From contig JAABTH010000016.1 in the NCBI GenBank assembly GCA_011389985.1, positions 1 through 43,705 on the forward strand: a DNA stretch of 43,705 nt. Reading direction: 5' to 3'. The position numbers were made by a program, and so were the translations under genes. The notes beneath the pieces were generated by a model that searched no databases, was not told the origin of the DNA, and saw only the letters and a program-made list of their open reading frames with translations. Shown piece after piece: positions 27,446 through 43,705 of this stretch. How positions within the stretch are numbered: the first letter of the stretch is position 1; every line of letters begins with the position of its first letter. Source of the DNA: Bacillota bacterium (GTDB lineage Bacteria > Bacillota > Dethiobacteria > DTU022).

Positions 27446-27474
27446 TTGACAGAAAGATTTGGTGTCGTTATAAT
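27446..27474 (+). promoter_or_regulatory. perfect consensus sigma-A promoter
   Basis: TTGACA (27446-27451) and TATAAT (27469-27474) are exactly 17 bases apart. It faces two tiny ORFs and the COG3580-type gene. The predicted leader before the first tiny ORF is about 75 bases. Confidence 0.88.
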
Positions 27475-40030: not shown

Positions 40031-40927
40031 TTGAAACATGTAGTCGGCATCAGCCTTGGCTCATCAAAAAGAGACCATAAAGTTACAGTAGAACTGCAGG
40101 GCGAGCATTATACGATTGAACGGATTGGTACCGATGGCGATATGAAGAAAATGGTAGAGATGATTAGTGAACTCGACGGTAAAGTTGATGCTTTTGGGCT
40201 TGGCGGTATGGATCTTTATGTCTATGCGGTTGACCGGCGTTATACCTTCCGGGATGCCAAAAGAATTGTCAGGGCAGCGAAGCAAACACCGATAGTGGAT
40301 GGTTCAGGGCTGAAAAATACTCTTGAGCGTCGGGCTATCGAATATGTTGCTGCCACCACAGATCTGTTCGAAGAACCGAAGAAAGTGCTGCTTATGAGTG
40401 CCATGGATCGCCTTGGCATGGCCCAGGCTCTTGAAGCAACTGGATCAGCCATGATCTACGCCGATCTGCCCTTTGTCATTGGGCTGCCTATACCGCTTAA
40501 ATCGCTTAAAACTCTGGCGGCAATCGCCCGTGTTATTGCTCCAATTGTCTGCCAGCTGCCCTTTACGATGATCTATCCGACCGGTGAAAAACAGACGGTG
40601 AGGAAACCCCGGTTTACCCGTTATTTTGAAGAAAACGATATAATAGCCGGTGATTTTCACTTCATTCATCGCTACATGCCGGATAAATTGTCCGGTAAAA
40701 CAATTATTACTAACACCGTCACCAGAAGCGATATTGAATTTTTAAGGGAGAGTGGACTTAAAACTCTGATCACCACAACACCGGAAATGGACGGACGTTC
40801 CTTCGGAACCAATGTCATGGAGGCTTTGCTCGTTTGTATGGCCGGAGGTGATCACGAGTTGAGTGAGCAGCAGTATAACTTAATGTTGAAAGAACTCGAT
40901 CTCAAGCCCAGAATTCTTGAACTTTAA
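40031..40927 (+). CDS. conserved protein often annotated quinate 5-dehydrogenase
   Basis: The 298-residue protein carries a block conserved among Clostridia: SLGSSKRDHKV at the start, IGTDGDM, DAFGLGGMDLYVYA, DGSGLKNTLERR, AGDFHFIHRYMP, TNTVT and LITTTPEMDGRSFGTNVMEA near the end. The usual database label is quinate 5-dehydrogenase, but no clear glycine-rich NAD(P) loop is visible, so I would not trust the enzymatic name. TTG 40031 follows AAGGGAG and is 16 bases after the HTH gene, so the two form an operon. Confidence 0.7.
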   Translation: MKHVVGISLGSSKRDHKVTVELQGEHYTIERIGTDGDMKKMVEMISELDGKVDAFGLGGMDLYVYAVDRRYTFRDAKRIVRAAKQTPIVDGSGLKNTLERRAIEYVAATTDLFEEPKKVLLMSAMDRLGMAQALEATGSAMIYADLPFVIGLPIPLKSLKTLAAIARVIAPIVCQLPFTMIYPTGEKQTVRKPRFTRYFEENDIIAGDFHFIHRYMPDKLSGKTIITNTVTRSDIEFLRESGLKTLITTTPEMDGRSFGTNVMEALLVCMAGGDHELSEQQYNLMLKELDLKPRILEL

Positions 40928-40977
40928 TAGCATGGATGAGATGGATCATTATCTGGAGTGGTTTGAAAATTGCTTTC

Positions 40978-41006
40978 TTGACAATGTCAGTTTAAGACCT
41001 TATAAT
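40978..41006 (+). promoter_or_regulatory. perfect consensus sigma-A promoter upstream of greA
   Basis: TTGACA (40978-40983) and TATAAT (41001-41006) are exactly 17 bases apart. Transcription would start near 41013. Confidence 0.85.
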
Positions 41007-41012
41007 AAATCA

Positions 41013-41106
41013 AAAATTTAGCTTCTTGATCCCTAAAGTGTCAGAGTTTGCTTGACACTATCTTTATCTGGCCAGGCTTTGCTCACTTCTAAAGCCGGTT
41101 TTTATT
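41013..41106 (+). ncRNA. candidate small RNA or leader RNA ahead of greA
   Basis: This stretch is bounded by the consensus promoter and an intrinsic terminator, giving a transcript of about 95 bases. Inside are a 7-bp hairpin, AGTGTCA (41037-41043) with TGACACT (41053-41059), and the terminator stem. It contains no ORF with a ribosome site. It may be a free-standing small RNA or an attenuated leader for greA-lysS. No known riboswitch or T-box signature is recognised. Confidence 0.5.
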
Positions 41107-41110
41107 TTGA
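41075..41110 (+). terminator. intrinsic terminator before greA
   Basis: GGCTTT (41075-41080) pairs with AAAGCC (41091-41096) around a 10-base loop, with two more C-G pairs across a bulged A (41072-41073 with 41097-41098). TTTTTATTTT follows. Confidence 0.7.
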
Positions 41111-41144
41111 CAGCTAAGAATAGATCAGATGAACAAACGCTTTT

Positions 41145-41150
41145 TATAAT
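41145..41150 (+). promoter_or_regulatory. possible -10 element of greA
   Basis: TATAAT lies 40 bases before the greA ATG and past the terminator. Its -35 region is weak. Confidence 0.4.
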
Positions 41151-41189
41151 AACTTTACCTTAGGATTATAAGCAGGGAGGCGGTATTAA

Positions 41190-41669
41190 ATGGAAAACCC
41201 GAGTAATGAATTATTATTGACTAAAGACGGCCTTGAAAAGCTTGAAAACGAACTTAATCATCTTAGAACTGTTAAACGCAAAGAGGTCGCTGCCCGCATC
41301 AAGGAAGCAATCTCATTCGGTGACATTACAGATAACTCTGAGTATGAAGACGCCAAAAACGAGCAGGCATTTATTGAAGGCAGAATAATTACCCTTGAGA
41401 AGATGCTGCGGCGGGCCCGTTTGCTGGAAAAAGATGCTAGCAGTGACTACCAGATATCGCTTGGTTCGACGGTAGTATTAAAAGATTTAAATCTTGATAA
41501 AGAATACGAATATACAATTGTCAGCACAGCTGAAGCTGACCCAACGGAGAAAAAGATTTCGAATGAGTCTCCGGTTGGCAAAGCCATACTCGGCCTTACC
41601 GTGGGCGATCAGGTTGAAGTTAAAGTGCCTGCAGGCAATTTCAATTACAGGATTGAGGGGATAAGCTAA
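41190..41669 (+). CDS. greA: transcription elongation factor GreA
   Basis: GreA rescues backtracked RNA polymerase by stimulating transcript cleavage. The 159-residue protein has the N-terminal coiled coil with the acidic tip (ISFGDITDNSEYEDAKNEQAFIEGRI) and the C-terminal FKBP-like domain ending with ESPVGKAILGLTVGDQVEVKVPAG. ATG 41190 follows GGGAGGCGG. It is followed 40 bases later by lysS, a common Firmicutes pair. Confidence 0.97.
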   Translation: MENPSNELLLTKDGLEKLENELNHLRTVKRKEVAARIKEAISFGDITDNSEYEDAKNEQAFIEGRIITLEKMLRRARLLEKDASSDYQISLGSTVVLKDLNLDKEYEYTIVSTAEADPTEKKISNESPVGKAILGLTVGDQVEVKVPAGNFNYRIEGIS

Positions 41670-41709: not shown

Positions 41710-43191
41710 ATGGATCAGGAACAACAACAGTTAAACGAGCTACTGCTGGTCAGGCGGCGCAAGATGGAAGCCCTACGGGAAAAAGGGATTGAACCTTTCG
41801 GTCGTAAATTTGAAGCAGATCACTACTCTGCAGAGGTAATTGACAACTTCAACTCCCTGGAAGGGAAAGAGGTTACCATTGCTGGAAGACTGGTTTCAAT
41901 CCGTTCGCATGGCAAAGCCACTTTTGCCCATCTTCAGGATTACCGGGGGCAAATCCAGATATATATCCGCCAGGACCAGGTTGGACCTGAACAGTACGAA
42001 ATATTTGACTTAGTTGATATCGGTGATTTTATCGGTGTAGCGGGGGAAGTATTCCGGACTCAAAAAGGCGAGATTACGGTAAAAGTTAACCAGTACACCT
42101 ATCTTGCCAAGGCTCTGCGACCCCTTCCCGAAAAATGGCACGGTCTTAAAGATGTGGAACTGCGCTACCGCCAGCGTTATGTCGACCTGATCGTTAACCA
42201 GGAGGTAAGGGAAACCTTTATCAGAAGAAGCCGTATGATTTCTGCCATGCGCGACATATTAAACAGCTGGGGTTTTCTTGAAGTCGAAACACCGATCATG
42301 CAGACTATCGCAGGCGGTGCATTAGCCCGCCCCTTTGTTACCCATCATAATGCTTTAGATATCAAACTTTATCTGCGTATTGCTACCGAGTTGCATTTGA
42401 AGCGATTGCTTGTCGGCGGATTGGATAAAGTATATGAGGTTGGCCGTATCTTCCGCAATGAAGGCATATCGACTATCCATAACCCTGAATTTACCTCGGT
42501 AGAGATTTATCAGAATTATGCTGATTACGAAGATATGATGGAAATTACGGAGAACCTTGTCTTCCAGATTGCAGAAAAAGTCCTGGGTACCGGAAAAATT
42601 GTTTTCCAGGGCAAGGAGCTTGACCTGACCCCGCCCTGGCCGCGTGAATCAATGATTGAAGTTGTCCGCAAGTATTCAGGAGTTGATTTCTCGCAGATAC
42701 CTGACGATCAGGCTGCTTTTGAAGCAGCGCGGAAAGCCGGTCTTGAACTTGACAAAGGGTTGCCCTGGGGAGAGATCCTTTACATGTTTTTTGAGGAATT
42801 TTGCGAAGAGCAGCTACTTGCACCCATATTTGTAACCGGATTTCCCGTTGAAGTATCGCCGCTGGCCAAAAAAATGTCTGAAGATGCCCGCTTGACCCTT
42901 CGTTTCGAAGCATTTATTGCCGGGTGGGAGATCGCCAATGCATTTACAGAGCTTAACGATCCGATTGACCAGCGCGAACGTTTTGAACAGCAGTTAACCA
43001 AGCGTGAAGCCGGCGATGATGAAGCTCATGTGATGGATGAAGATTTCATTAATGCCCTGGAATACGGGATGCCTCCTGCTGGCGGTCTTGGCATTGGTAT
43101 AGACAGAATGATCATGTTGCTTACAGATAACATCTCCATCAGGGATGTGATTCTTTTCCCGACCCTAAAGCCTAAAGCTTTAAATGACTGA
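41710..43191 (+). CDS. lysS: lysyl-tRNA synthetase, class II
   Basis: The 493-residue protein has an N-terminal OB-fold anticodon-binding domain (about residues 55-155, [23 protein letters not shown]) and a class II core with motif 1 ([10 protein letters not shown]), motif 2 ([11 protein letters not shown]) and motif 3 ([14 protein letters not shown]). Length matches LysS. ATG 41710 follows TGGAGG. The rRNA operon starts shortly downstream with its own promoter. Confidence 0.98.
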
Positions 43192-43544
43192 TCATAATAG
43201 CTTCTATTCCCATGAGTTTTATTAATTATTTGCGTTGCACTTGAACTTTCAATTCACCTTAAAAAGTTTTTCTTGAAAAATGTTAAAAAGTGTTTGACAG
43301 GGTAATAGAACCGTGCTATTATTTAAAGGTCGTGCTCGTCCGGTAGGGGCAGCGAGAAAGTGGAGCTGCTCCCTCTCTATGAAAAGAAGTCTTTCAGGCG
43401 AAATCGGCAGGAAAGAAGCAAAACAGTTCTTTGAAAACTGAGCAAGGAAAGGTGGGTCTCTTTTTTAAGAGGCCTTGTGATCAGTGATACTTTTGAGCTA
43501 ATGAAGGATTAGAGTTAAGATAACTTAAGAGTTTGTAGAGATAT
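43192..43544 (+). other. rRNA operon upstream region and leader
   Basis: No protein gene is seen. An A/T-rich stretch (43256-43292) precedes the promoter and could act as an UP element. After it comes a leader of about 215 bases with a boxA-like GTTCTTTGAAAACT (43426-43439) and a hairpin around GGTCTCTT/AAGAGGCC (43455-43474), likely part of antitermination and RNase III processing signals. Confidence 0.75.
43294..43322 (+). promoter_or_regulatory. rRNA operon promoter
   Basis: TTGACA (43294-43299) and TATTAT (43317-43322) are 17 bases apart, upstream of the 16S rRNA gene. Confidence 0.88.

Positions 43545-43705
<161 letters not shown>

Follow-up and report, generated by a model that had tools for sequence, protein, structure and literature searches.

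Described greA leaders

GreA governs how RNA polymerase backtracks, how faithfully it transcribes, and how it escapes promoters; outside Escherichia coli, little is understood of how the level of GreA is itself set. In E. coli, GreA with catalytic activity reduces expression of its own gene in cis through the leader RNA GraL; this effect was obtained in vivo only and was not reproduced in vitro, and an extra factor seems to be needed (PMC6829880). For the Bacillota, predicted greA-leaders in bacilli and Clostridia are described by Naville and Gautheret 2010 (PMC2965389). In Bacillus subtilis, suboptimal terminators whose U-tracts are interrupted are acted upon by NusA, and NusG retains polymerase at T-rich sequences that follow a hairpin (PMC12288461).

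The locus described here lies in a 43,705-nt stretch of DNA from a Bacillota bacterium (contig JAABTH010000016.1, hereafter the window); it is probably an attenuator that acts in cis, from within the leader, on transcription of greA-lysS. It resembles the Enterobacteria greA leader (RF01769, E. coli GraL) in its position in the greA leader close to the promoter, in its intrinsic terminator, and in the short RNAs that termination, predicted in the present case, would release. It differs in sequence and stems, in having one consensus promoter where RF01769 has two overlapping ones, and in a further conserved hairpin that stands apart, upstream of the terminator. A search of 351 bases of the window at E <= 10 gave no match to RF01769, whereas the E. 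coli positive control scored 127.5 bits. By analogy, the leader very likely works much like RF01769 leaders, though it is not a member of that family. The sequence-only reading, made before any database search, had recognised no known riboswitch class here and had suggested a search with Rfam models; none of 4227 families gave a relevant match to the leader, either at the gathering threshold or at E <= 10, and none matched the greA leaders of 20 relatives, yet greA-leader attenuators are as such a known kind of element.

Structure of the greA leader

The following features were assigned in the window.

40978..41006, + strand: sigma-70/A promoter TTGACA-17-TATAAT, 12/12 (sequence match; conserved at Bacillota greA)
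41007..41019, + strand: start region AAATCAAAAATTT (alignment of subtype-I leaders)
41037..41059, + strand: hairpin A, AGTGTCA-N9-TGACACT, the class-A hairpin of greA leaders (pairing; 42 aligned versions)
41060..41069, + strand: interrupted T-tract ATCTTTATCT after hairpin A, putative weak terminator or pause site (as a rule, 6 of the 10 nt behind the stem are T)
41070..41108, + strand: intrinsic terminator, stem GGCTTT..AAAGCC at 41075-41096 (present in 19 subtype-I leaders)
41190..41669, + strand: greA, the regulated gene (ORF; GreA search in related genomes)
41710..43191, + strand: lysS, next gene of the presumed operon (identified by sequence and synteny, not by family search)

The perfect promoter noticed earlier ahead of greA is confirmed at 40978-41006: the -35 element TTGACA (40978-40983) and the -10 element TATAAT (41001-41006) are separated by 17 bp and agree with the consensus at 12/12 positions. 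Promoters of this quality with a spacer of 16-18 bp occur at only 18 sites in the whole 1.9-Mb genome, and the reversed control pattern occurs at none. From the spacing, we infer a transcription start at about 41012-41014, 6-7 nt after the -10 element, and in the alignment of relatives' greA leaders the motif (G/T)CAAAAATT is kept in this start region. Transcription from such a start to the end of the terminator would give an RNA of ~95 nt. The TATAAT at 41145-41150, previously taken for a -10 element belonging to greA itself after the terminator, was rejected as a separate promoter, having a -35 element of 3/6 at best and no counterpart in the wider family. A second perfect TTGACA-17-TATAAT is present in the window at 27446-27474 on the + strand, near a tRNA-Pro gene on the opposite strand.

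Within the leader, the extra 7-bp hairpin of the sequence-only reading corresponds to hairpin A, the arms of which (AGTGTCA/TGACACT) form seven Watson-Crick pairs, or eight when one more inside is counted. The terminator with a T-tract that it had described was likewise found, with a stem at 41075-41096 that can be extended to 41070-41100 and the T-tract TTTTTATTTT at 41099-41108. In keeping with the absence of a convincing ORF, no ORF of at least 40 amino acids is present on the + strand of 40927-41190. By folding energy, the 96-nt leader RNA does not stand out (z = -1.23, with 21 of 200 shuffled sequences doing equally well), and energy was discarded as sole evidence for the leader; chance must therefore be judged by comparison with relatives.

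Conservation among close relatives

A search for GreA in 60 related genomes was positive in 53, and the regions upstream of greA were read in 28 of these. Most of the organisms are uncultivated, and the labels Syntrophomonadaceae or Bacillota MAGs carried by the relatives are a rough affiliation only. The perfect promoter precedes greA in all 28 relatives except one masked by N, and most of these upstream regions contain a hairpin of the form AGTGTCAAG..CTTGRCACT. Comparison of the leaders in related genomes, for which the sequence-only reading had proposed a covariance analysis, yielded a layout common to the window and 18 relatives (subtype I, 19 leaders), in which hairpin A is followed by GGCTTC..GAAGCC and GTTcTTTATTTT; the consensus has one stem of 8 and one of 6 pairs (14 in total). 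A second group (L021, L022, L024, L026, L028, and L029) has a different terminator in the same place (GGAAC..GTTCC or similar, TTTTTTATTT), partly formed around hairpin A. In a third group (L023, L025, L027, L030, and L031), as in Sporomusa, hairpin A is present with no clear terminator after it. Since hairpin A persists in several lineages that lack a clear second terminator, the latter is not essential; on the aligned sequences, hairpin A is the more constant part of the leader and the strong terminator the more changeable one. Judged by this comparative evidence, a chance origin of the layout is excluded. Two of the subtype-I leaders, both from one genus, L007 (genome G023) and L010 (genome G013), have lost AGTGTCA from the first hairpin while the terminator is unchanged; in L007 the first hairpin is rebuilt from other bases (TTGCAGA..TCTGCAA).

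A covariance model built from the 19 subtype-I leaders (R1) gave one confident match in its own genome, at greA (E 4.6e-18), the next best being 0.49. In a search of 45 relatives, R1 gave 15 matches better than 1e-9, every one of them at greA, with only weak matches elsewhere; some of the 15 helped to build the model and match by construction, so the informative part of this result is the absence of strong second sites. A model of the class-A hairpin alone (R2) also matches away from greA, and those matches that were opened were ordinary terminators with clean T-runs or A/T-rich tails. This suggests that the stem of hairpin A is of terminator type and that the interrupted tail sets the greA versions apart. 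A regulon beyond greA was rejected, there being no strong second match to R1 and the opened R2 matches off greA being ordinary terminators.

Distribution across the Bacillota

The comparison was extended to 80 greA loci from named genomes, including Sporomusa, Dethiobacter, Pelotomaculum, Desulfotomaculum-like organisms, Alicyclobacillus, Tumebacillus, Paenibacillus, and Cohnella. A 12/12 promoter lies no more than 420 nt upstream of greA in 77 of the 80 loci, with a 17-bp spacer in 71, and the remaining sequence of these loci (878 kb, both strands) contains only 5 other 12/12 promoters. Among 60 greA genes sampled from families across the phylum, the best promoter scored 12/12 in 50 and 11/12 in 10. 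The consensus promoter is thus near-invariant at greA far outside the clade of the window; such constancy at a single gene throughout a phylum is in itself unusual.

Class-A hairpins were found in 42 distinct greA leaders, including those of Sporomusa and Dethiobacter, at distances from the -10 element that range from 27 to more than 100 nt; those of the Sporomusa type run on into TATTTATATTG. When shuffled sequences served as the control in the phylum sample, 30 of 58 greA leaders had a best hairpin, no more than 100 nt from the promoter, with p <= 0.05, so that many but not all Bacillota greA leaders carry a strong hairpin near the promoter. A further hairpin, class B (AAGCACTGC..GCAGTGCTT), was found in 24 of the 58. 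Class-B hairpins of the form AACAAGCACTGC..GCAGTGCTTGTT occupy the same leader position in, for example, L175, L179, L181, L191, L193, and L221.

The leaders of Naville and Gautheret are alike in being predicted terminators before greA in the same phylum with the same proposed role, and the class-A hairpin is set beside them here by description, not by alignment. The accessible text of that paper reports a clear antiterminator per cluster, whereas none was found here as a conserved feature, and it holds no mention that we could find of a near-invariant consensus promoter (PMC2965389). The features that seem to be new are the class-A hairpin family, the way in which it is paired in tandem with a second terminator in the clade of the window, and the near-invariant promoter; no report of these was found in the open literature searched, outside of which most subscription papers lie. 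The near-perfect promoter and leader hairpin, combined throughout the phylum, offer a testable place at which to seek GreA feedback in the Bacillota and a candidate new Rfam family.

Among the sequences ahead of greA in other Bacillota, 20 of 129 contain the pattern GAATA-N13..19-CATATA, against 0.1 predicted by simple shuffling; it lies ~70-130 nt before greA (e.g. in L059, L063, L070, L093, L191, and L205) and was not seen in the window. It is reminiscent of promoters of sporulation sigma factors and could be a second greA promoter in those Bacillota.

Probable attenuation and alternative explanations

As in described greA-leader attenuators, an intrinsic terminator lies between the promoter and greA and is conserved in relatives. 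Starting from the observed structure and conservation of the leader, we infer termination and GreA feedback along the following lines. RNA polymerase would start at the strong consensus promoter and transcribe the leader, upon which hairpin A would form. The T-tract behind it is interrupted in nearly all class-A versions (usually 6 T in 10 nt), which, by analogy with the B. subtilis sites, suggests a weak terminator or pause, so that pausing or weak termination may occur there, with NusA and NusG as likely helpers. The second, better terminator would then stop many of the remaining transcripts. Early stops would produce RNAs of ~50 and ~95 nt, and read-through would produce the greA-lysS mRNA. 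The B. subtilis NusG/NusA-dependent hairpin pause sites are alike in consisting of an RNA hairpin and a T-rich stretch; their motif TTNTTT is absent from the window in its exact form, ATCTTT being present with one mismatch (PMC12288461).

GreA activity itself would be the most likely signal, acting as negative feedback by analogy with E. coli GraL, a proposal that we make tentatively. A broader version, in which a full-strength promoter and a hairpin pause or backtrack site form a Bacillota-wide sensor of polymerase state and the GreA level sets the terminated fraction, is doubtful. No antiterminator emerged from the consensus when truncated leaders were folded. An outer stem (P1) that joins the 5' leader to TCTTTATC appears in about one-third of single folds and was dropped as inconsistent across the family.

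It is unlikely that the hairpin and terminator merely insulate greA from upstream read-through or protect the 5' end of its mRNA, with no regulation involved. Many bacterial intergenic terminators do have such an insulating role, and other loci of the phylum use the same stem sequence in ordinary 3' terminators; nearly all versions of hairpin A, however, are followed by an interrupted T-tract, unlike the non-greA terminators. Furthermore, the terminator is downstream of the strong promoter of greA with no further conserved promoter behind it, and must therefore reduce transcription of greA.

The sequence-only reading had offered either an independent small RNA or a leader whose termination controls greA-lysS. 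The second part holds up well, since the element stays with greA in relatives and R1 matches strongly only there; for the first, no evidence of its own was found. An independent, trans-acting RNA that has its own promoter and terminator, and is tied to greA control by position alone, is a rather improbable reading: a perfect promoter and a terminator do frame the ~95-nt stretch and E. coli GraL works in trans as well as in cis, but the element accompanies greA across families and classes, its conserved parts are the promoter, hairpin, and terminator with no common unpaired seed outside the family, and several lineages keep hairpin A without the terminator. A trans-acting small RNA would at most be a by-product.

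Hairpin A as a probable RNA structure

When the 42 class-A hairpins were aligned, 99.2% of cells were paired, compared with 30-44% when the partner was slid by 1-3 columns. Covariation is modest, with 4 of 9 class-A pairs never varying, because the stem sequence itself is conserved. One pair is UA in 26 versions, UG in 13, and CG in 3, and another occurs as AU, GU, and GC. The covariation score and paired percentage were reached by 10 to 11 of 500 shuffles, a control that ignores kinship. An RNA structure fits these alignments better than a DNA operator, given the wobble pairs (G-U in 27 of the 42 hairpins), the few compensatory changes, and loop lengths that run from 4 to 11 nt. It is very improbable that the inverted repeat serves as a DNA operator to which a repressor binds immediately after the start site. 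The half-sites AGTGTCAAG/CTTGACACT do form a near-perfect palindrome of strongly conserved sequence, but their spacing varies with the loops, which a dimeric DNA-binding protein is not expected to accept and an RNA hairpin would; many versions contain G-U pairs, as given above; a C as the fifth base of GTGTC is always matched by a G in the other arm; and the distance from the -10 element is as variable as given above.

Genomic surroundings

A role of the leader as an antitermination site for the downstream rRNA operon was rejected: that operon has its own promoter-like TTGACA..TATTAT and boxA-like TTCTTTGAAAACTGAGCAA (43290-43450), and class-A leaders occur without need of rRNA synteny. In the window, greA-lysS lies directly ahead of the rRNA operon (43290-43545), and many contigs of relatives stop ~2 kb after greA, as expected for assembly breaks at rRNA.
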